Source: a virus. From it: a stretch of 37,579 bases of DNA. Positions 1 to 16,498 of the stretch are shown here, piece after piece (position 1 is the first letter of the stretch; each line of letters opens with the position of its first letter). The stretch covers positions 1-37,579 of IMG/VR virus record IMGVR_UViG_3300044729_004440; one strand, written 5' to 3'. The translations under genes were made by a program, and so were the position numbers. The notes beneath the pieces were generated by a model that saw nothing but the letters and a program-made list of their open reading frames with translations, made no database searches and was not told the origin of the DNA.

Positions 1-828
1 TTTGACATGAGCTACCCGCGCGGAGCCGAGAGCTACGCGCGTCGGCTCATGGACATCACGGGCGAGGCGATGGTCAGCCACAACCTCGCGGGCGATGCGC
101 CGCGCGCGGACGTGAGCATGACCGAGGACCTCTACCCGTTCCGCAACGTGCGCGCCTCGTACGCGTACTCGGTCGACGACCTCGAGCGCGCGGCCTTCGC
201 GCGCGTGGCCCTGCCCACGTGGAAGCGCGAGGCGTGCATCGAGGTCATAGCGCGCAAGATCGACTCGATCGGCCGCTCCGGCACCGTGAGCGACACCGAG
301 GGCGCAGCGAAGCTCACCGGCCTCTTCAACAACGCGAACGTCCCGGTCCTCACGCTGACGAACGGCGAGTGGCTCACGGAGACCGACGCGGCGAAGATCA
401 TCGCCGACCTCGACGAGATCGAGGCGACGATCATCACGCAGAGCAAGGACACGCAGCCCGACGCGTACACGCTCATTCTGCCGACCCTCTACGAGGGACG
501 GCTGACCACGATGCGCGCTGCGACGGACTCCGACATCTCGGTGATGGAGTTCTTCCTCCGCCGTTCGCGGCTCATCCGGCGCATCGTGCGCTGGGGCTCG
601 CTCGACAGCGCGGTCTCCCCGGAGATCAAGGCCTCGGACGCGCCGCAGGCGGTGTGCATGCCGATGGACCAGTCGCGCGCCGGCATCTACTGGCCGATGC
701 CGATCTCCTACGAGGAGAACACCCCGCAGATGAAGGGATGGGAGTGGCTCGTCGAGGCTCGCGCCCGCCTGGGCGGCGTCGAGTTCAGCCGCCCCTTCTT
801 CTCGCTCTACGTCGAGAACCTCGACTGA
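1..828 (+). CDS. Major capsid protein (DUF2184-like), 5' partial
   Basis: Encodes the C-terminal part of a major capsid protein that resembles the DUF2184 capsid family used by small-genome myoviruses. The frame is open to the first base of the window, so the Met at position 7 need not be the true start; family members are usually somewhat over 300 residues against 273 visible here. The stretch around TLILPTLYEGRLTTMR followed by a run of basic helix residues, and the C-terminal segment ending LFSLYVENLD-like (actual SLYVENLD), are compatible with the HK97-type P and A domains. Its position, directly upstream of head-tail adaptors, supports the call. Family assignment is from recognition rather than a search. 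Confidence 0.75.
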   Translation, partial: FDMSYPRGAESYARRLMDITGEAMVSHNLAGDAPRADVSMTEDLYPFRNVRASYAYSVDDLERAAFARVALPTWKREACIEVIARKIDSIGRSGTVSDTEGAAKLTGLFNNANVPVLTLTNGEWLTETDAAKIIADLDEIEATIITQSKDTQPDAYTLILPTLYEGRLTTMRAATDSDISVMEFFLRRSRLIRRIVRWGSLDSAVSPEIKASDAPQAVCMPMDQSRAGIYWPMPISYEENTPQMKGWEWLVEARARLGGVEFSRPFFSLYVENLD

Positions 829-839
829 GCTGAGCACCC

Positions 840-1187
840 ATGAACCTCACCAACGCAGGCAAGGGAAGCATCACGCTGCCGCTCCGAGAGGGGCCGGACG
901 GTGCGCTCTTCCCTGCCCGCGTGCGTCGCGACGGCACGCTGGCGCCGGCCGTGCCGTGCATCGTGGCCTCGAGCGAGAGCATCGAGATCCCCTCGTGGTA
1001 CCTCGACGCGCTCCTCGAAGAGCCTGGCCACGCGGCCCGCATCGAGCGCGGGCAGATCGTCATCACCCACGAGCAGCCCGAGCCCGAGCAGGTCTCGCAG
1101 CCCGAGCCCGAGCAGGTCTCGCAGCCCGAGCCCGAGCAGGTCTCGCAGCCCGAGCCCGAGCGCCGCCATCGGAAGCGTCGAGGCTGA
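840..1187 (+). CDS. Small phage protein with Glu/Pro repeat tail
   Basis: A 115-residue protein of unknown function between the capsid gene and a head-tail adaptor. Residues 1-78 form an ordinary mixed sequence. Residues 79-107 are a tandem repeat of the octapeptide QPEPEQVS (three full copies and a partial fourth), followed by a basic end, RRHRKRRG. The acidic repeat next to a basic tail suggests an extended, non-globular C-terminus. A head-decoration or adaptor accessory role is only a guess from position. The stop (1185-1187) lies 1 nt before the next start at 1189. Confidence 0.65.
   Translation: MNLTNAGKGSITLPLREGPDGALFPARVRRDGTLAPAVPCIVASSESIEIPSWYLDALLEEPGHAARIERGQIVITHEQPEPEQVSQPEPEQVSQPEPEQVSQPEPERRHRKRRG
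1074..1160 (+). repeat. 24-bp in-frame tandem repeat
   Basis: Three perfect 24-bp units (1074-1097, 1098-1121, 1122-1145) and a 15-bp partial unit encode QPEPEQVS repeats. The units are identical at the DNA level, which suggests recent expansion. Copy number could vary by slippage without breaking the frame. Confidence 0.95.
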
Positions 1188-1188
1188 C

Positions 1189-1476
1189 ATGCCTCTGACG
1201 CGCACACAGTTCTTGACGCGTCACCCGGAGTTCGCGAAGACCGACGGGACGCAGATCGACGCCGCCCTCACCGACGCAGCGAACGCGCTCGACGAGGACG
1301 TGCTCGCAGGCGAGTTCGATCGCGCGTGCGCCCTCTACGCCGCGCACTCGCTGTCACTGAGCCCGGCCGCGCAGAAGGCGCGGCTCAACGCATGGAGCTC
1401 CGAGACGCCCTACTCGGCGCAGCTCGACGAACTGCGGCGCAAGGCGGGCACCTCCTACCGGCTGATCCTCGACTGA
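1189..1476 (+). CDS. Head-tail connector protein (DUF4054-like)
   Basis: A 95-residue protein of the short helical head-completion type (DUF4054/gp6-like). It begins MPLTRTQFLTRHPEF and contains a central helix with an acidic face (TDAANALDEDV), a CALYAAHSLSLSP segment typical of these adaptors, and a C-terminal WSSETPYSAQLDELRRK helix. Such proteins sit on the portal ring and join head to tail. The ATG at 1189 follows the previous stop by 1 nt, and the gene lies between the capsid and gp10-like genes, as expected. Confidence 0.7.
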   Translation: MPLTRTQFLTRHPEFAKTDGTQIDAALTDAANALDEDVLAGEFDRACALYAAHSLSLSPAAQKARLNAWSSETPYSAQLDELRRKAGTSYRLILD

Positions 1477-1478
1477 CC

Positions 1479-1898
1479 ATGGCACCCCGCGCTCACGCTC
1501 GCGTTCGCGACATCGACCGAGGCTTCCGACGCTACCGTCGTGAGGCAGCGGGCGTATCCGTCCCGCGCCTGGTCGTAGGGGTGACCGAAGAGAGCGGCCG
1601 CGAACGGCACGCAGACAACGGCGCGACCTCGGCCGCGGTCGCGCTGTTCGTCGAGTTCGGCACGCGACGCCAGGCGCCGTCGCCATTCCTGCGCACCGCG
1701 GCGCACACGGTCTCCGGCGACGCGCGAGACGCGTGCATCGTGGTGGCCGAGCGTGGGCCCAGTGCTGCCGCCGCGCGCGACGCGCTCGATGCGCTCGGGC
1801 GCGAGGCTGCCGCTCGTGTGCGCGACCAGGTCGAGGCGATGGGCCTCGTCGACGAGGGCGTGCTGCGGGATGCCATCGGCCACGAGGTGCGGTCGTGA
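1479..1898 (+). CDS. Tail completion / neck protein (HK97 gp10-like)
   Basis: A 139-residue protein of the HK97 gp10-like tail-completion family. The diagnostic segment is VEFGTRRQAPSPFLRTA (about residues 52-68), matching the usual 'EFGT..APxPFLRPA' signature. It is followed by a long C-terminal helix (ARDALDALGREAAARVRDQVEAMG). These proteins act at the head-tail junction or tail terminus. The ATG at 1479 lies 2 nt after the preceding stop, and its own stop overlaps the next GTG start, so the neck genes look translationally coupled. Confidence 0.75.
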   Translation: MAPRAHARVRDIDRGFRRYRREAAGVSVPRLVVGVTEESGRERHADNGATSAAVALFVEFGTRRQAPSPFLRTAAHTVSGDARDACIVVAERGPSAAAARDALDALGREAAARVRDQVEAMGLVDEGVLRDAIGHEVRS

Positions 1899-2461
1899 GG
1901 CCGTCGTGGTCGGACATCCGCGCGCTCTTGCTCACGTGGGCGACCGCCCGATCCGGCATCGACACGGCCGGTGGCGCTCGGTGGGCCGACGAACCGCTCG
2001 AGGTGGCCCACGGACCCACCGTCGAGCTCTCGGTGCTCGGCACGGTGCGCCGCGGGACCGACGAGACCGTCTACGACGATGACGACGACGTGGTCGTGCC
2101 CACCACCGGCGGGCACCGCGAGCTCGTGCTGCAGGTCGCGATCGACTCGGACGACCAGACGCTCGACGCCAGTTCGGTGGCTATCGCGGAGCGCTTCGCC
2201 ACGCTCGCGACGGGGCCCGTGTCGCTGGCGCAGCTCGAGTCCGTAGGGCTGGGGCTGCTCTCTGTCGGCGACGCCGTCACCTACTCGGTGCGCGATGCCG
2301 GCGGCCGGGCGCATCCGCGCTCCGTGCTCGAGGTGCGTCTCTCGTTCGTGAGCGCGGTCGAGGACGACGCGATCCCCTTCATCGAGTCGGCGCACGCGAC
2401 GGGCACCGTCACGCGCCCCGGCGCCACCGCGATCACCGTCCCCGTGGCGGTCACGTCCTGA
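1895..2461 (+). CDS. Phage neck terminator protein (gp12-like)
   Basis: A 188-residue protein starting at GTG 1895 (GTGA overlap with the previous stop). It resembles the LIC_12616/neck-terminator family that ends the tail tube beneath the neck. Visible features are an N-terminal SWSDIRALLLTWA helix, a beta-rich middle with an acidic DDDDDVV loop, and a C-terminal VLEVRLSFVSAVEDD strand typical of tail-terminator folds. Its position directly before the sheath gene agrees. The family call is moderate because the N-terminal part is divergent. Confidence 0.6.
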   Translation: MRPSWSDIRALLLTWATARSGIDTAGGARWADEPLEVAHGPTVELSVLGTVRRGTDETVYDDDDDVVVPTTGGHRELVLQVAIDSDDQTLDASSVAIAERFATLATGPVSLAQLESVGLGLLSVGDAVTYSVRDAGGRAHPRSVLEVRLSFVSAVEDDAIPFIESAHATGTVTRPGATAITVPVAVTS

Positions 2462-2471
2462 GGAGCGAGCC

Positions 2472-3806
2472 ATGCCGGTCGATCTGAGCGAAGTCGTCGA
2501 CGTCTCCATCGCAGCTGACACGCGCGTCGTGACGCGCGCGGGCTTCGGTGTGCCGATCCTCGTCGGCTACCACACGCGCTGGGGCGACCGCGTCCGGAGC
2601 TACACGCGCCCCGCGGACATGCTCGCGGACGGGTTCACGACGTCGGACGCGCTGTACAAGGCGGCGGTCGTCCTGTGCTCGCAGCCGACGCGTCCGCCGG
2701 TCTTCAAGATCGGCCGCCGCGCAGGCGCGCCCGCGCAGACCGTCCGCTACACGCCGACCTCGGCGGTGGAGGGCGTCATCTACTCGGGGAGCATCGGGGC
2801 GGAGGAGTGGACGCGCACGGTGCCGGCCGCGTCGTCCATCTCGGCCGAGTGCACCGCGATCGCCGCCGCGATCAATGGGCTCTCCGGCGCGTTCACCGCG
2901 ACCGCGTCCACCACGTACGTCGACGTCGCGACCGACGTCGCGGGCGTCTTCTTCGCGCACCACAGCTGGGGCACGGAGAACGTCGCCGCGGGCCTCGAGC
3001 TCGAGGACCGCACGCCGGTGCCTAGCACGAGCCTGCAGACCGACCTCGCGGCGATCTACGCCGCGGACTCGGACTGGTACGGCCTCGACATCGTCGACGC
3101 GCACAGCGAAGCGCAGATCGCCGACGCGGCGCTCTGGGCCACCGCGAACAAGGTGCTCTACATCGCCCCGAACTTCTTCGCGGGCGTGGGCAAGAGCGGC
3201 ACGACGACGGACGTCGCGAGCGACATGCAGGACCTCGCGTACCGCAACGTCTCGATCTGGTACGTCGAGAACGGATGCGACCAGGGGTTCGCGGCCGGCC
3301 TGCTCGGCAAGTGCCTCCCCTACGACCCGGGCTCCGAGACCTGGGTCTTCAAGGAGATCACAGGCGTCGAGGCGGACGAGATGTCCACGACCCGTGCCGC
3401 GGCCGCGCACGCGAAGTACGCCAACACGTACCAGCCCGTCGGCGGCTTCAACATCACGCGCAAGGACGGCGTCGTCGCTTCGGGCGAGAAGATCGACGTC
3501 ATCCGCTTCGTCGACTGGCTCGAGGCGCGGGTGAAGGAAGCCGTCTTCGGCCTCCTCGTCGCGGTCCCGAAGCTTCCGTACACCGATGCGGGCCTCGCGC
3601 AGATCGCCGGCGCCATCAAGAGCGTCCTGCTCGAGGCCGAGCGTGTCGGAGGTCTCGACGTCGGCACGAGTTACGTCTCGGTCCCTCGCGTGTCGAGCAT
3701 CTCGAGCGCCGACCGCGCGCTGCGCGATGCGACGGGCATCACCTTCGGCGGCCGGCTCGCTGGCGCCGTCCACCACGCGACCCTGCGCGGTCAGGTCTCG
3801 GTCTGA
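2472..3806 (+). CDS. Contractile tail sheath protein (DUF3383-like)
   Basis: A 444-residue tail sheath protein of the DUF3383 family found in small myoviruses. It polymerises around the tail tube and contracts on infection. Visible family traits are an N-terminal segment with RAGFGVPILVGYH, a middle segment with DWYGLDIVDAHSEAQIADAALWA, a TTRAAAAHAKYANTY helix, and a C-terminal domain with ISSADRALRDATGITFGGRLAGAVHH. A Shine-Dalgarno-like GAGGAG lies upstream of the ATG. Its presence, with the tube gene next, is the main evidence that the phage is a myovirus. Confidence 0.88.
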   Translation: MPVDLSEVVDVSIAADTRVVTRAGFGVPILVGYHTRWGDRVRSYTRPADMLADGFTTSDALYKAAVVLCSQPTRPPVFKIGRRAGAPAQTVRYTPTSAVEGVIYSGSIGAEEWTRTVPAASSISAECTAIAAAINGLSGAFTATASTTYVDVATDVAGVFFAHHSWGTENVAAGLELEDRTPVPSTSLQTDLAAIYAADSDWYGLDIVDAHSEAQIADAALWATANKVLYIAPNFFAGVGKSGTTTDVASDMQDLAYRNVSIWYVENGCDQGFAAGLLGKCLPYDPGSETWVFKEITGVEADEMSTTRAAAAHAKYANTYQPVGGFNITRKDGVVASGEKIDVIRFVDWLEARVKEAVFGLLVAVPKLPYTDAGLAQIAGAIKSVLLEAERVGGLDVGTSYVSVPRVSSISSADRALRDATGITFGGRLAGAVHHATLRGQVSV

Positions 3807-3838
3807 GCTGAGAGCGCCTCGAGGCGCGGGAGCACCAC

Positions 3839-4282
3839 ATGGCAGAGCAGCTCTACAACTACGCCCCGGGGTCGAACGTCCTGACGATCGGGACCTCGCG
3901 CATCGAGGGCTTCGGGCCGGACGACGCGATCACGATCGAACCGGGCGACGACGCCTCCACCACGCAGGTGGGGATCGACGGTCAGGTGACGCGCACGGTC
4001 GTCACCAACAAGACGGGCGTCGCGACCATCACCCTCAAGCAGACGTCGCGCGCCGGGCGCGTCCTCGAGACGCTGCTCGCGCTGCAGGACGACGGTGCGA
4101 ACGGCGCCGACGTGAGCGCCTTCTACTATCGCGACGCCGGCACCGGCGAGGAGCACACGGCCGAGCAGTGCTTCATCGAGCGGCGTCCCGACTACGCCTT
4201 CTCGAAGGAGGCTGGCACGCGTGAGTGGCGCCTGCGCCTCGTGAACTGGCGCGTGTCCTACGCCGAAGAGGTGGCCGGGTGA
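3839..4282 (+). CDS. Tail tube protein (DUF3277-like)
   Basis: A 147-residue tail tube protein, DUF3277-like, that forms the inner tube of the contractile tail. It starts YNYAPGSNVLTIGTSRIEGFG and has a 'TQVGIDGQVTRT...TITLKQTSRA' beta-sandwich core and a C-terminal WRLRLVNWRVSYAEEVAG, all characteristic of this family. A GGGAG Shine-Dalgarno lies 6 nt before the ATG. It follows the sheath gene and overlaps the chaperone gene by 4 nt (GTGA). Confidence 0.85.
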   Translation: MAEQLYNYAPGSNVLTIGTSRIEGFGPDDAITIEPGDDASTTQVGIDGQVTRTVVTNKTGVATITLKQTSRAGRVLETLLALQDDGANGADVSAFYYRDAGTGEEHTAEQCFIERRPDYAFSKEAGTREWRLRLVNWRVSYAEEVAG

Positions 4283-4719
4283 GCGCGGAGCGCGAGATCG
4301 GAGGGCACACCTTCCGCTTCACGAAGCTCGGCTACCGGCGCGCGCGCGCGGTGCTCGTGCGCACGGCGAAGGTGCTGGGTCCGGCGATGTCGGGCCTCAG
4401 CACGCTCGACCCGGCGAAGCTCTCCGTCGCCGACATCGGCAGCCTCAGCGGCGCGATCACCGCAGCGCTGGACTCGCTCACCGACGACGACCTCGAGTTC
4501 GTGACGCAGGCGTTCGGAGAGCACTCGTCGATCAAGGTCGGAGAGGCGTGGGCACCGCTCGCCGACGAGGCGAAGCGAGGCGTGTACTTCGATCGCGCCG
4601 GACTCGGCGTGTACTTCGCGTGGCTCCGTGCTGCGTACGAGGTGACCTACGGCGATTTTTTCGCCGAGCTGCGCGCCGCCGCCAAGAGCAAGCCCGGCGG
4701 CGGCACCCAGGCGCAGTGA
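4279..4719 (+). CDS. Tail assembly chaperone (upstream product)
   Basis: A 146-residue protein from GTG 4279, located between tail tube and tape measure, the fixed position of tail assembly chaperones. It begins with a short beta segment (GGHTFRFTKLGYRRA) and is helical afterwards. Codons 126-128 read GAT TTT TTC and create the heptamer T TTT TTC in the correct phase for -1 slippage. That frame is open into the next gene up to 4910. The predicted fusion is about 210 residues, analogous to lambda gpG-GT. The role (coating the tape measure during tube assembly) comes from the family and position. Confidence 0.75.
   Translation: MSAEREIGGHTFRFTKLGYRRARAVLVRTAKVLGPAMSGLSTLDPAKLSVADIGSLSGAITAALDSLTDDDLEFVTQAFGEHSSIKVGEAWAPLADEAKRGVYFDRAGLGVYFAWLRAAYEVTYGDFFAELRAAAKSKPGGGTQAQ
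4656..4662 (+). promoter_or_regulatory. Putative -1 programmed ribosomal frameshift site
   Basis: The heptamer T TTT TTC is phased X XXY YYZ with respect to the frame of the chaperone gene at 4279. Slippage by -1 enters the frame of the gene at 4716-4910, which is open from well upstream. A run of six T is conspicuous in such GC-rich DNA. Frameshifting at this gene pair is widespread in tailed phages. Confidence 0.7.
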
Positions 4720-4910
4720 GCGTTCCGCTCCCGGTCGACATCGACTGGGAGCTCTGGCGGCTGCTGACGGACCCACGGGTCCACGCGAGCAAGAGAGAGA
4801 TCGAAGAGGAGTGGACGCTCGACGACGTGCTCGATGCGCACGCCGTCCTCGACGCGAAGGACCACGCCGACTGGCTGGCAAACAGGCCCCGACCAAAGGG
4901 CGCGAGGTGA
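4716..4910 (+). CDS. Tail assembly chaperone, second (T-like) segment
   Basis: A 64-residue product from GTG 4716 (GTGA overlap with the preceding stop). Alternatively it is made as the C-terminal part of a -1 frameshift fusion with the upstream chaperone. It contains DIDWELWRLLTDPRV, then EIEEEWTLDDVLDAHAVLDAKDHADWL, a pattern common in the small downstream chaperone ORFs of myoviruses (DUF6889-like from memory). It ends 4 nt before the tape measure start. In tailed phages the corresponding segment recruits tail tube subunits to the tape measure. Confidence 0.7.
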   Translation: MSVPLPVDIDWELWRLLTDPRVHASKREIEEEWTLDDVLDAHAVLDAKDHADWLANRPRPKGAR

Positions 4911-4914
4911 ACAG

Positions 4915-6486
4915 GTGGCCCAGGGTTCCATCATCGTCCGTGAACTCATCGCGATGCTCGGCTTCGAGCTCGATGAGGATGCGCTCGACGAGTGGGACGC
5001 TCGCGTCACTGGCATCGCCCGCGACGTCGCCACCACGGTGGCTGCGATGGGCACGGCGGTGGTCACCGCGGCAGCCGCGGCGACGCAAGAGCTGATCTCG
5101 ATGGGCGACGAACTCGGGGACGCTGCCGTGCGAACGGGCATGTCTGCGCGCGAGCTCGCGGAGTGGGACCACGTTGCTCAGCTGTCCGGCACCAGCGCCG
5201 AGGCCGTGCGAGGTGTGCTGTCTCGCCTCCCTGGGGTGATGGATCGAGTCGCGTCCGGCAACCGCGCCATGCGCTCGACGTTCAGCGAGTTGGGCGTGAG
5301 CGTGACTGGCGCGGACGGGGCGATGCGGTCGAGCGGCGACGTGCTGCAAGACCTCATCGGCGGTCTGGCGCGCATCGCGAACCCCGCGCAGCGAGCTGCC
5401 ATGGCCACGCGCGTCTTCGGTCGCCGCGGGGCTGAGCTCGCAGGGCTCTTCGAGCAGGGGTCGGACGGTGTCGCCCGCCTGCGCGGCGAGGTGCGCGCGC
5501 TCTACGGGGACGACCTCGAGGGCTTCGTCGAGGCGGCGGGTCGCGCGCAGGACGCAGAGGACCGGCTCGCGCTCACGTTCCGCGCATTCGCGGTCTTCGT
5601 CGGGTCGCAGGTGCTACCGGTCGTCGCGGAACTCATCGAGGGCGCAGTGACGGGCGGGCGCTCGTTCATGGAGTGGGCGCGGGGCACGACCGTGGTGCGC
5701 GCCGCGCTCATCAGCTTGACGGCAGTGGTGAGCGCGACAGCGGTCGCGGCCACGGCGCTCGCGCTGAGCACGATCGAGATCTGGGGCCCGGTCGCGCTCG
5801 GAGTCGGCGCGGTCGTGGCGGCCATGGTGCTCCTTGGCCTGGCGATCGACGACATCCTCACGTTCTTCGAGGGCGGCGACTCGATCTTCGGACAGATGCT
5901 CGGCGACGACGCGAAGGAGGTCCTTCGGTTCGTGCGCGAGATGACCGAGCTGATCCGCAAGGACCTCGCTGAGATCACCGGCGACGTCGACTTCAGCTGG
6001 GTCGACCTCCTGCGGATGACGTTCGAGGTGCTCGTCTCGGTGGTGGGCACCGCGATCATCACGCTCCTCGTCGCGACGCGCATGGTCACGGGCCTGGCTC
6101 GCACGGTGCGCGAGCTCGGAGAGGCCGTGCACACGTGGATCTCCGGTGCCTGGCAGGAGGCATCGCAGCGCGTGGCCACGTTCGTCGCTGAGGCCATCAG
6201 CGGCATCGCCAGGGTGCGCGGAGCTCTCTCGGGCGTCGCTGGCATGCTCGGCATCGACGTGGGCGGCGTGTCTGGCGGCGCGGCGAAGGCCTCGCCGGCT
6301 GCGGTGACGGCGACGCCGTCGAGCTCGACGCGCTCGAGCACCAGGACGGTCAGCATCGGCGACATCGTCGTGAACGGCGCGGCCGACCCGGGGGCGGTCG
6401 CCTCCGAGGTGCACTCGCGCATCACCGCGTTCTTCGACGACGAGGCCGACGCCGCGCGAGACGACCTCGTGCCGGAGGCCGCATGA
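4915..6486 (+). CDS. Tail tape measure protein
   Basis: A 523-residue tape measure protein that sets tail length and is probably ejected with the DNA. Start GTG 4915 is preceded by AGGTGA at good spacing. Residues 1-150 contain DELGDAAVRTGMSARELAEW and AMRSTFSELGVSV, then a helical NPAQRAAMATRVFGRRGAEL segment typical of TP901/Mu-type tape measures. Hydrophobic helices lie near residues 260-320 (ALISLTAVVSATAVAATALA and WGPVALGVGAVVAAMVLLGLA). The C-terminus is Ser/Thr-rich. Its short length predicts a short tail. The stop overlaps the next start (ATGA). Confidence 0.85.
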   Translation: MAQGSIIVRELIAMLGFELDEDALDEWDARVTGIARDVATTVAAMGTAVVTAAAAATQELISMGDELGDAAVRTGMSARELAEWDHVAQLSGTSAEAVRGVLSRLPGVMDRVASGNRAMRSTFSELGVSVTGADGAMRSSGDVLQDLIGGLARIANPAQRAAMATRVFGRRGAELAGLFEQGSDGVARLRGEVRALYGDDLEGFVEAAGRAQDAEDRLALTFRAFAVFVGSQVLPVVAELIEGAVTGGRSFMEWARGTTVVRAALISLTAVVSATAVAATALALSTIEIWGPVALGVGAVVAAMVLLGLAIDDILTFFEGGDSIFGQMLGDDAKEVLRFVREMTELIRKDLAEITGDVDFSWVDLLRMTFEVLVSVVGTAIITLLVATRMVTGLARTVRELGEAVHTWISGAWQEASQRVATFVAEAISGIARVRGALSGVAGMLGIDVGGVSGGAAKASPAAVTATPSSSTRSSTRTVSIGDIVVNGAADPGAVASEVHSRITAFFDDEADAARDDLVPEAA

Positions 6487-7178
6487 TCCTCTCGTACGAG
6501 CGAGCGGAGGTCGTGGACACCGTCGAGTTCGACGTGACGCTCCGTGAGACGTGGACCGCGGAAGCCGACGTGCCCACGCGCCCGGTGGAGTCAGGCGCCG
6601 ACGTGGCCGATCATGTCGTACCAGGCGCGCAGCGCTTCTCGGCTGTCGTCGTCGTCACCGATACGCCCATCGTCGCGCCAGCGACGCAGATGTACGGGGT
6701 CGTGGGCACGATCGAGCAGCAGGAGATCGCTCTCGGCTCTCTGCCTCGGATGCGCCGCGGCGCGAGCGGAAGCACGCCCGCGGAGTACGAGCGCGCGAGC
6801 ACATCCGTACGCGTTTCCACCCTGCGCTGGTCGGAGCGGTTCTCTCGCGTCGAGCGTGTGCTCGAGGTGCTCGACACCATCCGCCGCGAGGCGCTGCGCT
6901 GCACCGTCATCACGACCGTGCGCGAGGCCGGCGACCTCTACATCACACGCGTGCACGCTCCACGGAGCGCGACCAAGAGTATCGAGATCACACTCGACTT
7001 CGTTCAGGTCCGCGTCGCCGAGTCGGCAACCGTCGATGTGCCGGAGCCGGAGGAGCCGCGCGCGCGCCCGCAGGTCGATGCCGGACGTCAGCGCACGACC
7101 GAGGTCACGGATGCGGTGACGCGCGAGCGCGCCACGTCTGCGCTCGCAGCAATCGCAGCTGCCGCGGGAGGTGCGTGA
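6483..7178 (+). CDS. Dit-like / baseplate hub-associated tail protein
   Basis: A 231-residue protein directly after the tape measure. It matches the Dit-like N-terminal fold: 'VESGADVADHVVPGAQRFSAVVVVTDTPI' resembles the usual 'I.DH....P..f...g.vs..P' core, and 'LDTIRREALRCTVITTVREAGDLYITRVHAP' matches the later strands. These proteins form the ring joining the tail tube to the baseplate hub. The C-terminal 50 residues are charged and Ala-rich and probably disordered. It overlaps both neighbours by 1-4 nt. Confidence 0.65.
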   Translation: MILSYERAEVVDTVEFDVTLRETWTAEADVPTRPVESGADVADHVVPGAQRFSAVVVVTDTPIVAPATQMYGVVGTIEQQEIALGSLPRMRRGASGSTPAEYERASTSVRVSTLRWSERFSRVERVLEVLDTIRREALRCTVITTVREAGDLYITRVHAPRSATKSIEITLDFVQVRVAESATVDVPEPEEPRARPQVDAGRQRTTEVTDAVTRERATSALAAIAAAAGGA

Positions 7179-7516
7179 TGCTGGCCATCACACTGCCCGT
7201 CTCAGCGTCGACGCCGCGCGTGCGGCAGCGCGTCCAGCTCGACGGCGCCGAGTACCTGCTGGACACGTCGTGGTCCGCGCGAGCCGCAGCGTGGACGATG
7301 ACGCTCGCCGACACCGAAGAGCACCCGATCCGCGCGGGGATGTTCCTGCGCCGCGGGCACCGGCTCCTCCGAGGCCTCGCTGATGCGCGACGCCCCGCCG
7401 GCGAGCTCGTGGTCGTCGGTCGCGAGGAGCGCCTCGGTCTCGACTCGTTCGCCGCCGGCGACGCGAGCCTGGTCTACGTCACCGAGGCCGAGCTCGCCGA
7501 GATGGGGGTCGCATGA
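7178..7516 (+). CDS. Baseplate plug protein (Pam3 gp18-like)
   Basis: A 112-residue beta-rich protein starting at ATG 7178, one base into the preceding stop (TGATG). It resembles the small plug protein of cyanophage Pam3-type baseplates: 'RQRVQLDGAEYLLDTSWSARAAAWTMTLADTEEHPIRAGMFL' followed by a 'PAGELVVV...GDASLVYVTEAEL' end. In that family it lies inside the hub channel beneath the tube. Gene order (Dit-like, plug, hub, spike) supports the call. Confidence 0.65.
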   Translation: MLAITLPVSASTPRVRQRVQLDGAEYLLDTSWSARAAAWTMTLADTEEHPIRAGMFLRRGHRLLRGLADARRPAGELVVVGREERLGLDSFAAGDASLVYVTEAELAEMGVA

Positions 7517-8331
7517 CCATCCTCTTCCGGCGCCGCTACGTCCTCACGGTGCACGACCTGGAGATCACAGGTCTCGACATCGCGTTCTCGGTCGAGCGCA
7601 CACTGCGGCGCGAGCCGAACCGCGCAAGCGTGCGCGTCTGGAACCTGTCGGAAGACCACCGCGCGTCGATCGGTCGGATGGAACGTGTGCGCGTGCGCCT
7701 CGAGGCCGGCTACGAGCAGGCCTCCGGGGTCATCTTCGACGGCTACCTCGTCGAAGGGCTCTCCCGCAAGGACGGGGCGTCGTGGGTCACCGGGCTCCGC
7801 TCGGGCGATGGTCACCACGCAACGCGCTCCTCGCGAATCTCCTGGTCGTTCCGCGCCGGCTCCTCGCTGAGCGCGCTTCTCGAGCGGACTGCCGCTGCGA
7901 TGGGCGTCGGCCTGGGGAATGCGCTCGACGCGTTCGGCCGCGCCGGCACGCCGGCTGGCACGCTCCTCGAGCAGGGGGCGGTCTCGGGGCGAGCGGACGA
8001 CGTGCTCTCGCACCTCTGTGACGCGTGCGGGCTCGAGTGGTCGATCCAAGGCGGCGTGCTGCAGGTGCTAGATCGCAGCGGCGCTCTTCGCCGATCAGCC
8101 ATCGTGCTCGATCCCGGCACCGGCCTCGTGGGAAGCCCACACGTCGACTCGCGCGGGCGGCTGCACGCCGAGGCCCTCATGGTTCCGGAGATCGAGCCGG
8201 GCCGTCTCGTTTCCCTGCGCAGCGCCCACGTCGAGGGCGTGTGGCGTGTGACGAAGGCGACCTTCGCGGGTGAATCGACTGGCAAGCAGTGGGGCGTCGC
8301 CATCGAGGCGGAGCCGGAGGGACGCGCGTGA
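7513..8331 (+). CDS. Baseplate hub protein
   Basis: A 272-residue hub protein (gp27/gp44 type). It begins with a tube-like beta domain (LEITGLDIAFSVERTLRREPNRASVRVWNLSEDHRASI...VRVRLEAGYEQ...IFDGYL), which is diagnostic of phage hub N-domains. A middle domain contains 'LSALLERTAAAMGV' and 'SHLCDACGLEWSIQGGVLQVLDR', and a closing 'AEALMVPEIEPGRLVSLRSAHVEGVWRVTKATFAGES' strand set resembles other hubs. The trimer would bridge the tube to the spike. It overlaps plug and spike genes by 4 nt each. Confidence 0.8.
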   Translation: MTILFRRRYVLTVHDLEITGLDIAFSVERTLRREPNRASVRVWNLSEDHRASIGRMERVRVRLEAGYEQASGVIFDGYLVEGLSRKDGASWVTGLRSGDGHHATRSSRISWSFRAGSSLSALLERTAAAMGVGLGNALDAFGRAGTPAGTLLEQGAVSGRADDVLSHLCDACGLEWSIQGGVLQVLDRSGALRRSAIVLDPGTGLVGSPHVDSRGRLHAEALMVPEIEPGRLVSLRSAHVEGVWRVTKATFAGESTGKQWGVAIEAEPEGRA

Positions 8332-8996
8332 CCATCTCCGCGACCCTCACCCGGCTCGTGCGCGACGCCATTCGCGCCGCGCTCTTCGACGTTCACACGG
8401 CCTTCCCGGCGCGCGTCGAGGGCGTGAGCCGCGACTCGATCGGCTGGCGCGTCGACGTCAAGCCGCAGTACTACCGCTTCCTCGCGAAGCGCGGCGGCGG
8501 CGAGGTGCGCGAGGAGTTGCCCGTCATCCCCGACGTGCCCGTGCTCTGGCCGGCGGCCGGCGGCTGGGGCATCGCGATGCCGATCGAGGTGGGGGACCAC
8601 GTCCTCGTCGTTGCGAGCGAGCACGCGATCGGGCAGTGGCGCGCGCGAGGAACGCTCTGCGACCCGCAACTGCGCGAGCGTCATGGTCTGTCGGGCTGCA
8701 TCGCGATCCCTGGCGCGGGGACGGCTGTCCGCGCGTTCGCCGATGGCGTGTCCGCCGCGGCTCAGGCAGGCATCATCATCGGCAAGGACGGCGGGATCCA
8801 GATCGCCATCTCCTCGACGGAGATCAAGCTGGGACGCAGCGCGAGCAAGGCGCCAGCGACCGCGCCCGAGGTCTTCACCGAGTTCACCAAGATCAAGACG
8901 ACCCTCGACTCGCTCAGCGGCGCGACGTTCGGCACGCCCTACGTCGCGCCCCTGGACGCGTCCGCGATCGGCGCGTCGAAAGTGAAGGTGGAGTGA
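8328..8996 (+). CDS. Central spike protein (gp138-like)
   Basis: A 222-residue baseplate spike. Residues 15-110 match the Gp138-type OB-fold N-domain: a 'FPARVEGVSR...WRVDVKPQYYRF' start, then 'EELPVIPDVPVLWPAAGGWGIAMPIEVGDHVLVVASEHAIGQWRA'. A short beta-helix-like C-terminal part contains 'GIIIGKDGGIQIAISSTEIKLG', as in membrane-piercing needles. Start GTG 8328 overlaps the hub stop (GTGA). The protein would cap the hub and pierce the outer membrane. Confidence 0.8.
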   Translation: MTISATLTRLVRDAIRAALFDVHTAFPARVEGVSRDSIGWRVDVKPQYYRFLAKRGGGEVREELPVIPDVPVLWPAAGGWGIAMPIEVGDHVLVVASEHAIGQWRARGTLCDPQLRERHGLSGCIAIPGAGTAVRAFADGVSAAAQAGIIIGKDGGIQIAISSTEIKLGRSASKAPATAPEVFTEFTKIKTTLDSLSGATFGTPYVAPLDASAIGASKVKVE

Positions 8997-9400
8997 TGGA
9001 CTTCGCCATCGCAGAGACCGTGTCTGCAGCCAACCCCATCGCGGGCGACCTGTCGTTCGACGCTGTCGCCCAGCCGGAGTTCGTCACCGGCGTGGAGGCC
9101 ATTGCCCAGGACGTGCGCACGAGGCTGCGCTGGTTCAAGGGCGAGTGGTTCCTCGACGCGCGCACCGGGTTCCCGTGGTTCCAGCGCGTTCTCGGACAGA
9201 AGGTCACTGAGCGCGTCGTCGAGTTCTTCCTGCGCCGGACCATTTCCGAGACACCTGGTGTCGCGCGGATCGCCTCGATGCGGGTGTCGATCGACCGTCG
9301 GACCCGTGAGCTCACGGCGTCCTTCTCGGCAGTGGCCACGAGCGGTGCAGTGATCGACTTCTCTGACTTCGTCCTCGGCGACGTCGCGGAGGTCGCATGA
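8996..9400 (+). CDS. Baseplate wedge protein, gp25/W-like
   Basis: A 134-residue protein of the gp25-like baseplate wedge family. The signature 'VRTRLRWFKGEWFLDARTGFPWFQRVLGQK' (about residues 37-66), followed by 'FFLRRTISETPGVARIASMRVSIDRRTRELTASFSA', is typical of this lysozyme-unrelated wedge fold that initiates sheath assembly. Start ATG 8996 shares a base with the spike stop (TGATG), and its stop overlaps the J-like gene (ATGA). Confidence 0.85.
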   Translation: MDFAIAETVSAANPIAGDLSFDAVAQPEFVTGVEAIAQDVRTRLRWFKGEWFLDARTGFPWFQRVLGQKVTERVVEFFLRRTISETPGVARIASMRVSIDRRTRELTASFSAVATSGAVIDFSDFVLGDVAEVA

Positions 9401-10593
9401 CCACCTACGGACTCACGTCCTTCGGGTTCTGGCGCAAGCCGCTCGAGCGCATCGTCATCGAGCTCGAGGAAGACCTCAGAAGCGAACTCGGCGAGGAGCT
9501 GAACACGAAGTCAGGCCCGATGCACCAGTTCATCGGGACCTTCGCCAGCCCTCTTGCCGAGCAGTGGGAGTTGCTCGAGCTCGCCTCAGCGTCCATCGAT
9601 CGCGGCGCGGCCGAGGGCGCGCTCCTCGATGCGCTCGGCGCCCTCACCGGCACAGCCCGAGACGCAACTCGGCCGAGCACCGTCACGCTCACCCTCACCC
9701 TGTCCGCCGCGTGCACCGTGCCAGCCGGATCGGTCGTGTCGCGCTCAGGCGATCCGACGGTCCGCTTCGTCACGACCGAGGCCGTCACGGTCGGCGCAGC
9801 TGGCACGGAGACCGTCACGGCGGAGAGCGAAGGCGACGGGGCGATCGAGGCCCCCGCTGGCACGCTCACCGTCATCGAATCGCCCGTGTCCGGCTGGGCG
9901 AGCGTGACGAACGCCGCAGACGCGACGCTCGGGTCGGCCCAGGAGACCGACGAGGCTTACCGGGCGCGACAGGTTGCCGAGCTCGAAGCGAGCGGCGCGG
10001 GCACGATCGACACCATCCGCGCGCGCGTCCAGCGGGTCGACGGCGTGATCGATGTCCTCGGCTACGAGAACCGCACCGACGAGCCGGACGGCGCGGGGCG
10101 ACCCGCGTACAGCTTCGAGATCGTCGTGTGGGACGGGTCGCCAGCCGCGGCATCGAACAACGACATCGGTGCGGCGATCTGGGAGACGCAGCCCGCGACC
10201 GCGCGTTCCTACGGGGCCACGTCGGTCACCGTCGCCGATGAGGCGGGCGGACCGCAGACGGTCCTCTTCTCGCGCGTCACCAAGCGCAACGCGTACCTCG
10301 AGGTGCAGATCACAGCCTCGACCGCGCTCGGCTGGACGAGCGGTCTCGCGGACACGGTGAAGTCGGCCCTGGCGGCCTGGGGTGACGCGAACCTCGGTGT
10401 CGGCGACGACGTCGTCCGTTCGCTCCTCTCGCGTGTGGTGCACGACACCAGCGCGTCGATCACCAACGTCTCGGCCGTGCTCACGGGATGGACCGCGAGC
10501 CCGCTGACCGCGGCTGATCTCACCGTCGGCGAGCGCGAGGTCGCCGACATCGACACGGCACGGATCGTCGTGACCGTCACCGTGGTGCCCTAA
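9397..10593 (+). CDS. Baseplate J-like wedge protein
   Basis: A 398-residue J/gp47-family wedge protein. It has the N-terminal 'LEEDLRSELGEELNTKSGPMHQFIGTFASPLAEQWELLELASASIDRGAAEGALLDALGALTGTARDATRPST' region, a central beta-domain (TVPAGSVVSRSGDPTVRFVTTEAVTV...GDGAIEAPAGTLTVIESPVSGW), and the family's 'QETDEAYRARQVAELEASGAGTIDTIRARVQRVDGV' hallmark (about residues 185-220). It forms part of the iris of the baseplate. The stop is TAA and overlaps the next ATG by 1 nt. Confidence 0.9.
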   Translation: MTTYGLTSFGFWRKPLERIVIELEEDLRSELGEELNTKSGPMHQFIGTFASPLAEQWELLELASASIDRGAAEGALLDALGALTGTARDATRPSTVTLTLTLSAACTVPAGSVVSRSGDPTVRFVTTEAVTVGAAGTETVTAESEGDGAIEAPAGTLTVIESPVSGWASVTNAADATLGSAQETDEAYRARQVAELEASGAGTIDTIRARVQRVDGVIDVLGYENRTDEPDGAGRPAYSFEIVVWDGSPAAASNNDIGAAIWETQPATARSYGATSVTVADEAGGPQTVLFSRVTKRNAYLEVQITASTALGWTSGLADTVKSALAAWGDANLGVGDDVVRSLLSRVVHDTSASITNVSAVLTGWTASPLTAADLTVGEREVADIDTARIVVTVTVVP

Positions 10594-11498
10594 TGCCCGT
10601 CACCGTACTGACCAAGACCGACGAGTCGATCGGACGCGAGAAGCAAGAGCAACCGCTCAACACACTTGTGCCCGTCGACCTCGATTTCTACGAGACAGCC
10701 GAGGAACACGAGCGCCAGAAGGACGCGCTCATCGAGCACGCGAACGCGATCAACGACCTCGAGGACAGCGTCGGCTCGATCCCAGGAGCCATCCTCTACG
10801 ACATGCCCATCGCGACCGCGAGCGTGGGTGTCGCGGTTCGGTTTCGCACGAACGGCGACACGGGCACGCCGTCGGGCACCGCGGCGAAATCGCTTGTCGC
10901 GTACGAGTCGTACCCGAACAAGCAGGCACTGCGGCTGTCCGCCACCGGCCTCAATGGCGGGCTCGTGTGGCCCGTGCTCCACGGCATCACGCTTCCCGAG
11001 GAGTACATCTTCGAGGTGGAGATCGCTGGCCTTGACGCGGCCAGCGGAGGCAACAAGGGCCTCATCTTCGCGATGTGCGATTTCTACTCCGAGTCCGGAG
11101 TGGATTCGGTGCGCGGGCTTGTGCACGAGCACTATCGCGGGTTCGGCCAGGTCGACACGCGAACGGTCGCGCGCCTCACCGGCCCATACGCTGCAGTCAA
11201 CAACGTCATCACCACGAGCGGCTGGCCGAACTTGCCCAACTACAGGCAGCGAACGCCCCTCGCCCGCTACCACGTACGTCGCAAGCTAACAGGCGGGCTC
11301 GGGACGCCGGCTCAGTGGTCGCTGCGAGCGGTTCACGAGGGCAACGGCAGTTCCGATCTGCCGTTCCACCTCAGCGGCGTCGTCAACCCGCAGACCGACT
11401 TCGACGGAAGGACCTTCGACGAGATCGGCATCGGCGTCTTCGGGGCGTCGGGCAACATGAACATCGACATCGCGAGACTGCGCATCCGCGCCGCCTGA
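10593..11498 (+). CDS. Unknown protein in baseplate cluster
   Basis: A 301-residue protein not recognised. Residues 1-55 are charged and helical (DESIGREKQEQPLNTLVPVDLDFYETAEEHERQKDALIEHANAINDLEDSVGS), suggesting a coiled-coil or attachment segment. Residues 60-300 are beta-rich with aromatic-glycine turns (YIFEVEIAGLDAASGGNKGLIFAMCDFYSESG; QWSLRAVHEGNGSSDLPFHLSGVV; RLRIRAA end), similar in texture to lectin-like jelly rolls. It is inserted between the J-like and I-like wedge genes, which are usually adjacent. A baseplate-attached appendage or receptor-binding protein is plausible but unproven. Confidence 0.75.
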   Translation: MPVTVLTKTDESIGREKQEQPLNTLVPVDLDFYETAEEHERQKDALIEHANAINDLEDSVGSIPGAILYDMPIATASVGVAVRFRTNGDTGTPSGTAAKSLVAYESYPNKQALRLSATGLNGGLVWPVLHGITLPEEYIFEVEIAGLDAASGGNKGLIFAMCDFYSESGVDSVRGLVHEHYRGFGQVDTRTVARLTGPYAAVNNVITTSGWPNLPNYRQRTPLARYHVRRKLTGGLGTPAQWSLRAVHEGNGSSDLPFHLSGVVNPQTDFDGRTFDEIGIGVFGASGNMNIDIARLRIRAA

Positions 11499-11504
11499 GG
11501 AGCC

Positions 11505-12176
11505 GTGCCGACGTCATTTCCACACAGCTTCGGGTACGACCCCAGCATGACGAGCGTGGCGGGCACATCGCTCGCGCTCGATCTCACGCACGTCGATCGC
11601 GCGCACACCCGGCTGCTGACGCAGTTCAAGGGCAAGCCGCGGATCGAAGGCGTCGTCCGCGCGCTCGTCCGCCAGGTCGTGCACCTCGAGGTGGCGACGT
11701 GGCAACTGCTCGTCGAGCGCCTGCTCTCGACCGCTGCTGGCCAGGTGCTCGACCGACTGGGCGAGATCGTCGGAGTGCGGCGCGCTCCAGGCGCGAACGA
11801 CGCGCGACACCGTCGACGCATCGGCGTGGAGATCAGCGTGCTCAGGTCTCGCGGTACCGCGGGAGACCTCATCGGCATCGCGCGCCTCTACTCGGGCGAA
11901 ACCGACGTGGCCATCGACCAGAGACTTCCGTGCGAGGCCGCGGTGGTGCTCGCGTTCCAGCTCGACGGCGACGAGTGCTTCGAGCTCGCGCGGCTCATCA
12001 CGCGAGCCAAGCCGGCCGGACACCGGGTCACGACCGAGTACCTCGTGCAGCCAGTGGCGGAGTCCCTCGCGTTCTCGAGCGAACTCTCTACTTGGGAACC
12101 AGGCAATGACGCGACCGGGTTCGGCTGGTCGGGCGATGCAACGCTCGGCGGCTCGCTCGCCGGCGTGACGGAGTGA
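11505..12176 (+). CDS. Baseplate wedge / tail protein I-like
   Basis: A 223-residue protein starting at GTG 11505. The middle region 'VVRALVRQVVHLEVATWQLLVERLLSTAAGQVLDRLGEIVGVRRAPGANDARHRRRIGVEISVLRSRGTAGDLIGIARLY' has the pattern of gpI/DUF2612-type wedge proteins ('LE.a...l...r.ld.A.G.qLd.lG.ivg..R....D..yr..i...i..n.s.Gt..dl'). These connect the wedge to the tail fibres. The C-terminus is short and beta-rich (ESLAFSSELSTWEPGNDATGFGWSG). The following gene is a fibre-like protein, which fits this adaptor role. Confidence 0.75.
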   Translation: MPTSFPHSFGYDPSMTSVAGTSLALDLTHVDRAHTRLLTQFKGKPRIEGVVRALVRQVVHLEVATWQLLVERLLSTAAGQVLDRLGEIVGVRRAPGANDARHRRRIGVEISVLRSRGTAGDLIGIARLYSGETDVAIDQRLPCEAAVVLAFQLDGDECFELARLITRAKPAGHRVTTEYLVQPVAESLAFSSELSTWEPGNDATGFGWSGDATLGGSLAGVTE

Positions 12177-15602: not shown

Positions 15603-16498
15603 GCGAGTCGACGCTCATCCTGCGCGACGCTGGCAGCGAGCTCGTCATCGAAGGCGACGACGGTGCGGAGCTCACGCTCGTCGGCGACTCCGAGGTGCTC
15701 GAGGTCGACATGGGCACGATGGGCCCGCAGGGGCTCACCGGGCAGAGCGCGTACGAGCTCGCGGTCGAGGAAGGCTTCGTGGGCGACGAGGCCGCGTGGC
15801 TCGCGTCGCTCGTGGGCCCGCAGGGTCCGACCGGCGCGACTGGTGCAACCGGCGCGACAGGTCCAGCGGGACCTACGGGCGCCACGGGCCCGGCAGGCCC
15901 GCAGGGAGATCCTGGCCCGACGGGCGCGACAGGGGCCACCGGTCCGACGGGCGCCACCGGCCCCGCTGGACCGCAGGGCGACCCCGGGCCCACGGGTGCG
16001 ACCGGCGCAACCGGGGCGACGGGGCCTGCGGGCCCGAAGGGCGACACGGGAGACACCGGGCCCGCGGGCTCGACGGGGCCTGCTGGGCCGACCGGCGCAA
16101 CAGGACCGGCAGGTCCCACTGGTGCAACTGGCCCAGCAGGGCCCGGCGTGCCTGTCGGCGGCACCGCTGGTCAGCTGCCGGTCAAGGCAAGCGGCACTGA
16201 CTACGACGTCGCATGGACCGACCCGCCCATTCGCGGACGCGCCACGCTCGACTTCGGCACGCGAGGCACGGTCGCGAGCGTCAGCGTTGCGAGCGCCACC
16301 GTCACCGCGACCTCGCGCGTGATCGCGAGCATCGCTGCGGTTGCGAGCGCCGACCACACCGCCGACGAGGCGCTCGCAGAAGACATCGAGGTCCGCGTCG
16401 GCCCGATCACGGCCGGCGTCGGTTTCGACGTGCGCGGCATCGTGCGGAGAGGCCGCACAAGCGGCGAGTTCTTCGTCGACTGGATTCAGCTCACCTGA
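15599..16498 (+). CDS. Collagen-like tail fibre protein
   Basis: A 299-residue fibre protein from GTG 15599. The N-terminal ~75 residues form a globular segment (including [37 protein letters not shown], a motif common at fibre bases). About 105 residues of uninterrupted Gly-X-Y repeats follow ([13 protein letters not shown]..., up to GPAGPG), predicting a collagen-like triple helix. The sequence '[24 protein letters not shown]' is the usual transition in phage fibres. The C-terminal ~90 residues are beta-rich and probably the trimeric tip. Confidence 0.85.

Follow-up and report, generated by a model that had tools for sequence, protein, structure and literature searches.

The Adele paper (PMC12846349) describes a -1 frameshift that is conserved in Vandenendeviridae and Andersonviridae, together with its invariant GTTTTT, and the announcements of the Felix O1-like phages Moogle and Mijalis mention a frameshift (PMC4319497, PMC5543628). 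Frameshifting in related chaperones is therefore already reported (PMC12846349), and the locus analysed here is very probably a new example. It is carried by an IMG/VR virus record of 37,579 bases, analysed at its full length and referred to as the window. The window shares with the two families a homologous sheath, the gene order sheath, tube-type protein, tail assembly chaperone (TAC) and tape measure, the -1 relation and the place of the poly-T site. In Escherichia phage wV8, the site reads AGT TTT TTC, a heptamer identical to that of the window, whereas PAK_P2 and similar phages have GTT TTT one codon later. Gene 15 of phage Pam3 (ON014755) carries the nonamer GAT TTT TTC and a -1 C-domain alignable with that of the window, but the C-domain is unannotated in the record and the upstream element is weaker (-4.3). 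The window phage is far diverged from the Vandenendeviridae and Andersonviridae (best sheath identity to a named phage, 34%) and has a GC content of 71%.

Phage lambda is a siphophage. Its two chaperone forms, gpG and gpGT, are described as being made in unequal amounts by -1 slippage shortly before the first open reading frame (ORF) ends (Xu, Hendrix and Duda, cited in PMC5009743), and a figure legend in the same source names Lys tRNA. In an HK97-like chaperone cluster, 6% and 7% frameshifting is given for two genes (PMC3711429). The slip proposed for the window, like that of lambda, is located near the end of the first chaperone ORF, but the N-terminal product (TAC-N) falls in a different chaperone family (PF21822).

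The frameshift signal of Escherichia coli dnaX has spacings of 10 nt and 5 nt. It is composed of a Shine-Dalgarno-like element, a heptamer and a downstream hairpin (PMC3711429), and the same three-part layout is found in the window. The two differ in the heptamer (A_AAA_AAG in dnaX, T_TTT_TTC in the window), in the gene, which is unrelated, and in the outcome, as slipping truncates the product in dnaX and would extend it in the window. The general idea of an upstream element is not new, because PRFect, trained largely on tail chaperones, is described as taking a ribosome binding site ahead of the slip into its score (PMC10885494). Our literature search, which reached few subscription papers and neither Xu 2004 nor Baranov 2006, found no conserved upstream Shine-Dalgarno-like element reported for this chaperone lineage, which is not proof of novelty. 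Judging from the sequence comparisons reported here, a -1 ribosomal frameshift on T_TTT_TTC very probably yields the pair formed by TAC-N and its extended form, TAC-NC.

Results

The tail module and the chaperone locus

The tail module of the window comprises, in order, the sheath, the tube-type protein, TAC-N, a small second frame ending at 4910 and the tape measure (Table 1). The tube label rests on the family PF11681 and on position. The window phage, which is of high GC, appears to have a contractile tail. TAC-N matches PF21822 (E 8e-11), phrog_1613 (E 8.6e-7) and phrog_1688 (E 7.5e-6), and its gene lies between the tube-type and tape-measure genes, as membership in the TAC -1 frameshift class demands. 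Matches and placement both agree with the initial annotation, which had named a tail chaperone pair. Among the BFVD matches of TAC-N are proteins named 'tail assembly chaperone' (E 3.4e-4 and 6.2e-4), and the tape measure chaperone of Moogle is matched at E 4.2e-3.

Table 1. Features of the chaperone locus and of the neighbouring tail genes (positions in the window).
Feature	Positions	Strand	Details
Tail sheath gene	2472..3806	+	phrog_205, E 1.3e-83; DUF3383
KPP10_Orf10-type structural gene, tube position	3839..4282	+	PF11681, E 8.1e-12; phrog_280 'virion structural protein'
TAC-N, tail assembly chaperone	4279..4719	+	146 aa in the zero frame; starts at a GTG within a GTGA overlap with the tube-type gene
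GAGGTGA, Shine-Dalgarno-like	4639..4645	+	ends 10 nt upstream of the heptamer; anti-SD duplex -7.2 kcal/mol
Slippery heptamer T_TTT_TTC	4656..4662	+	codons TTT 4657-4659 and TTC 4660-4662; position kept in relatives
TAC-C, -1 frame extension	4662..4910	+	basic linker, then three-helix domain; core WELWR from 4746
Predicted stem-loop	4668..4717	+	begins 5 nt past the heptamer; its 3' arm has a 6-nt bulge; -30.7 kcal/mol
GTG able to start TAC-C alone	4716..4718	+	GTGA overlap with the TAC-N TGA; best anti-SD energy -4.8
Tape measure gene	4915..6486	+	phrog_8125, E 6.4e-28; PhageMin_Tail

In the frame of the ORF at 4279-4719, positions 4654-4662 read GAT TTT TTC, which places the heptamer in X_XXY_YYZ phase. 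The zero frame ends at the TGA at 4717-4719, while the -1 frame, entered at the slip site, meets no stop before the TGA at 4908-4910 and gives a TAC-N/TAC-C fusion of 210 residues. The phase of the heptamer and the entry of a -1 slip into the downstream frame had thus been read correctly in the initial annotation. The predicted tryptic junction peptide of the -1 fusion is AAYEVTYGDFFR, and its zero-frame counterpart is AAYEVTYGDFFAELR.

The T-run of the heptamer is the only homopolymer of T or A in the whole window that reaches six bases, and in this respect its earlier description as exceptional stands. By occurrence, however, the heptamer is mildly unusual: TTTTTTC is found once on the two strands, whereas 100 dinucleotide shuffles contain 0.12 copies on average and 12 of them have at least one. 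It is the in-phase placement at a homologous position, rather than the occurrence of the heptamer, that carries weight.

In the AlphaFold2 model of TAC-N (mean pLDDT 88.9), slip residues 127-128 open the last helix, so the fusion would keep the fold that precedes it. The TAC-C model features a linker without secondary structure and three helices (pLDDT 92-97 in blocks over residues 31-80). TAC-C of the window matches phrog_4625 (E 0.0018). Among 27 TAC-C sequences, five match DUF6889 (best E 2.1e-5), and 10, seven, five and five match phrog_4364, phrog_3976, phrog_16972 and phrog_4625, respectively, families without annotated function. Neither domain gave a convincing match when its sequence was searched against solved structures. 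A fold search with the C-domain gave no match with E <0.001, the best being an uncharacterised protein of Pseudomonas phage phiPsa267 (E 0.17), and DUF6889 is not mentioned in the literature searched.

Other features of the window lie outside the tail module. The record starts with the major capsid gene, after which the ORF 840-1187 contains a perfect 24-nt tandem repeat (1073-1161, 3.7 copies) encoding repeated QPEPEQVS. A GC-rich tandem repeat of period 72 (15851-16113) is perhaps collagen-like and part of a tail fibre gene, which is a guess. Near the record end, a large ORF (34155-36728) carries DUF927 and DUF3854 domains.

Relatives of the window and the -1 relation

The window sheath matches 1206 phage records, all at less than 60% identity (best about 34% among named phages), and the best identity among fetched contigs is 42%. 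No relative was found in single-protein scans of viral contigs with the window TAC-N and sheath, and no match was obtained when genome contigs were scanned with the sheath or phages were searched by tblastn with TAC-N. Relatives were found through sheath alignments in place of single-protein scans, and loci were accordingly picked via the sheath, not via the slip site. The sample consists of annotated stretches of 12 named records and of sheath-bearing contigs from viral and genome collections. The viral contigs are the best 80 of 371, the best 80 of 579 and the best 80 of 548 confirmed places, among the matches listed, and the sheath scan of the genome collection contributed 10 places. Certain contigs entered twice. 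Together with the window, the loci number 240 (L002-L240 being the relatives).

Iterated profiles detected TAC-N in 213 loci, TAC-C in 200 and both, in the expected order, in 198. L070 was counted on a match inside a stretch dense with overlapping ORFs. TAC-C is in the -1 frame relative to TAC-N in all 198 loci having both domains, as in the window, and not in the -2 (+1) frame of the Mu type (PMC5009743). In the Chaseviridae phages LA93P1 and Fifi44 and in cyanophage Pam3 (L009, L010 and L013), the -1 C-domain is present and unannotated in the records.

The loci left out are 27 of the 240 without TAC-N, two of them with a TAC-C match, and 15 with TAC-N alone. Eight of these 15 contigs end before the slip site, and six reach it, all six featuring T_TTT_TTN. 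The Barbavirus L008, also with TAC-N only, has no T-run at the site; by eye, its nearest T_TTY is T_TTC_GCA, seven codons past the Gly-equivalent. As to the 27 loci without TAC-N, 17 have less than 1200 nt beyond the sheath match. L050, L068, L069 and L171, as well as the Firmicutes contigs L236, L237, L239 and L240, also lack TAC-N. In phage D6E (L006) and Listeria phage B054 (L011), where no TAC-N was found, the chaperone looks to be of a different type, with the second frame in +1 or -2.

Conservation of the slippery site

The TAC-N sequences were clustered greedily at 70% identity, which left 111 representatives. T_TTY sites, in which a T stands directly before a Phe codon (TTT or TTC) lying no more than two codons from the aligned position, occur in 105 of them, a figure to be read with the relatedness of the representatives to one another in mind, and with the fact that the TAC-N profile, seeded with 45 T-run sequences and ending at the slip codons, could favour similar sites. 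The other representatives carry C_CCT_TTA (two), C_CCT_TTC (two), T_TTA_AAA (one) or none of these (one), such that five of the six without T_TTY have another X_XXY_YYZ site. A slippery T_TTY is thus conserved in relatives at the same codon, give or take two codons; conservation of the heptamer had been proposed as a check along with the signal itself. Elsewhere in the same TAC-N genes, T_TTY is found in 561 of 9975 five-codon windows (5.6%). The commonest heptamers are TTTTTTC (41), TTTTTTA (14), TTTTTTG (9) and TTTTTTT (9).

Conservation holds at high GC. T_TTY is present in 46 of the 47 representatives with at least 58% GC (44 with TTT), compared with 3.5% of control windows, and of 3130 other Phe codons in these loci, 90 are in T_TTT and six in T_TTT_TTN. 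The codon preceding the slip Phe in the 46 loci is GAT (24), GGT (7), AGT (4), AAT (3) or TCT (3), with GTT, CCT, CGT, GCT and ACT found once each; the pre-slip T is part of the T_TTY definition, and the T share expected for those residues is 0.21. While the residue before TTT changes (D, G, S, N, A, P, T or R), its codon always ends in T, even in loci of 60-70% GC, which suggests that the constraint on the slip site acts on the nucleotide sequence. At the second slip codon, any of F, L, S, R, W, I, T and G is found. In PAK_P2-type loci, the site is GTT TTT, which moves T_TTT downstream by one codon and leaves the A-site codon unconstrained. Together, these observations suggest that slipping needs little more than a conserved U_UUY read by a single Phe tRNA.

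In L100, L058, L121, L192 and L217, T_TTA_AAA, C_CCT_TTA or C_CCT_TTC replaces the T-run at the same place; these look like separate changes of the slippery heptamer. L102 (6263-6885) features a -1 TAC pair with T_TTA_TTC at the site and no standard slippery heptamer. This locus was omitted from the stimulator and start-codon tests, which consequently include 110 representatives rather than 111.

Upstream and downstream elements

The exact arrangement GAGGTGA-N10-TTTTTTC is also present in 12 other fetched loci on 10 contigs. To each representative we assigned the best anti-SD duplex ending 8-14 nt 5' of the heptamer, and compared it with synonymous shuffles made by local codon use. The mean over the 110 representatives is -4.98 kcal/mol versus -2.92 kcal/mol in shuffled sequences, and none of 1000 shuffles is as strong. 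Duplexes at or below -5 kcal/mol are found in 62 loci, compared with 29 on average and 39 at most in the shuffles, while 295 control Phe codons show no upstream excess (-2.24 vs -2.47). In a position scan (40 shuffles), the excess is located 9-14 nt upstream (z -8 to -9); z is -3 at 17 nt and ranges from -2.7 to +1.8 farther out. The excess persists in each of four GC bins, as well as when averaged across 79 clusters linked at 45% identity. Codon choice follows the same trend: at the upstream site, Glu-Val is encoded by GAG GTN in 29 cases and by GAA GTN in one (25 commonest pairs listed), whereas elsewhere GAG GTN accounts for about half.

By itself, the upstream element of the window is not significant, since 31% of synonymous shuffles reach -7.2 kcal/mol because codon use in the window already favours it, and 11 of the 110 loci reach the 5% level singly. 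The element at -5 is missing in 48 representatives. It is present in 48 of 73 T_TTT_TTN sites, 5 of 15 T_TTT_NNN, 3 of 3 T_TTC, 2 of 2 CCCTTTA, 0 of 2 CCCTTTC and 0 of 1 TTTAAAA, and in 4 of 14 GTT TTT sites, not all from the family of PAK_P2. The mean upstream strength of these 14 sites is still beyond all 1000 shuffles. A nearby ATG, GTG or TTG is found in only 11 of the 62 loci with the element, which is therefore not generally a start signal.

Downstream of the heptamer, the predicted stem-loop at 4668-4717 has a z of -3.26 (2 of 200 shuffles as low), and folding of 4663-4720 gives -31.8 kcal/mol (z -2.61; 1 of 200 shuffles). In the family, folding of 36-nt windows peaks at +4 (mean z -1.05 vs -0.14 at control positions) and fades by +12, with z below -2 in 23% of the loci versus 8% of controls. 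Neither stimulator is universal, as evidenced by these percentages and by the 48 loci devoid of the upstream element. In the window, the heptamer is preceded at about 10 nt by an anti-SD element and followed at about 5 nt by a predicted hairpin, but it reads T_TTT_TTC and not A_AAA_AAG; for this reason, the cassette is not filed as a dnaX-type member, although by analogy it may work like dnaX.

Alternative readings of the locus

The main alternative holds that TAC-C is a separate gene translated from GTG 4716 and coupled to TAC-N through the GTGA overlap, the T-run being incidental. The overlap is real, TAC-N too starts at a GTG in such an overlap (4279-4282), and some anti-SD pairing is present upstream of GTG 4716 (Table 1). 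The initial annotation had suggested that this start and the frameshift could coexist. However, start codons counted between the slip site and the conserved C-core in the 110 representatives, window included, tell against a separate gene: 82 lack ATG, GTG and TTG, and 92 lack ATG and GTG. Mononucleotide shuffling leads one to expect about 60 loci with at least one ATG or GTG and about 50 without, whereas 18 with such a codon are observed. Five of the 110 have ATG or GTG within 12 nt of the TAC-N stop, and the window, having this GTG, is in the minority. A start before the C-core with anti-SD of -5 or lower is found in 2 of 110 representatives, compared with 92 of 109 for the best candidate start of TAC-N. 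In the window, the first two bases of the GTG are paired in the predicted hairpin, at its 3' end. Across the sequences compared, the family does not conserve a separate GTG start, and we judge GTG 4716 to be minor or unused, although separate initiation may take place in the window phage. Of the earlier suggestion, the overlap stands and the coexistence of two modes is weakened; that TAC-C is a separate gene is highly unlikely.

The T-run could also be kept solely for a Phe-Phe requirement of the protein, given that Phe is nearly invariant at the first slip codon in 27 aligned TAC-N sequences. Codon choice speaks against this notion. The 12 structural-module ORFs of the window (7-12176) contain three TTT, slip codon included, and 91 TTC (91 of 94 Phe codons), yet TTT is used at the slip site; the corresponding counts for Asp are 31 GAT and 162 GAC. 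Moreover, the preceding residue varies around a constant third-base T, and the second slip codon need not encode Phe, which leaves this explanation with a negligible probability.

Transcriptional slippage on homopolymer runs does occur (PMC5009743), and RNA polymerase slippage on the T-run might alter the transcript length and allow the fusion to be made by ordinary translation. The bacterial runs described in that source are of 9 A or T, whereas the run in the window is of six, and relatives maintain the frame relation with four or five T, CCCTTTA/C or TTTAAAA. We consider this explanation hardly credible. Homopolymers are error-prone and the record is a metagenomic virus contig, but a sequencing or assembly error splitting one gene is extremely improbable, as the -1 relation recurs in 198 of 198 two-domain loci, in many contigs and several named phages.

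Discussion

The anatomy of the signal and its conservation were observed directly; from them we infer that a -1 slip takes place, how often it does so and what the two stimulators contribute. Most ribosomes would read TAC-N to its stop at 4717-4719. A minority would slip back by one base on T_TTT_TTC, with the Phe tRNA on UUU or UUC re-pairing with UUU, and would go on to 4910 to yield the 210-residue TAC-NC. In this product, the chaperone fold would be kept to around residue 126 and be followed by a basic linker and a small helical C-domain. If the parallel with lambda gpG/gpGT holds, the tape measure protein may be covered by many TAC-N molecules, and the few TAC-NC molecules may serve to recruit tube protein. 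Slipping is probably made more frequent by the Shine-Dalgarno-like element ending 10 nt before the heptamer and by the hairpin that begins 5 nt after it, as in E. coli dnaX.

For the lineage at large, we find it reasonably likely that three statements hold jointly: that DUF3383-sheath myophages broadly share a three-part signal with the dnaX layout, that their slip site can be reduced to U_UUY with the A-site codon free, and that DUF6889 and phrog_4364, phrog_3976, phrog_16972 and phrog_4625 represent the frameshift-encoded C-domain.

In several records, the C-half is unannotated or is reported as a 'hypothetical protein' with a start codon that is probably never used. Recognising the frameshift mends such annotation and offers a likely function for orphan families. 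If the upstream element is real, the family would provide more than 100 natural variants of one cassette, in which stimulators are strong, weak or absent and slip sites are full or minimal. Such a set would allow a direct test of the effects of an internal Shine-Dalgarno and of the A-site codon on bacterial -1 frameshift rates.
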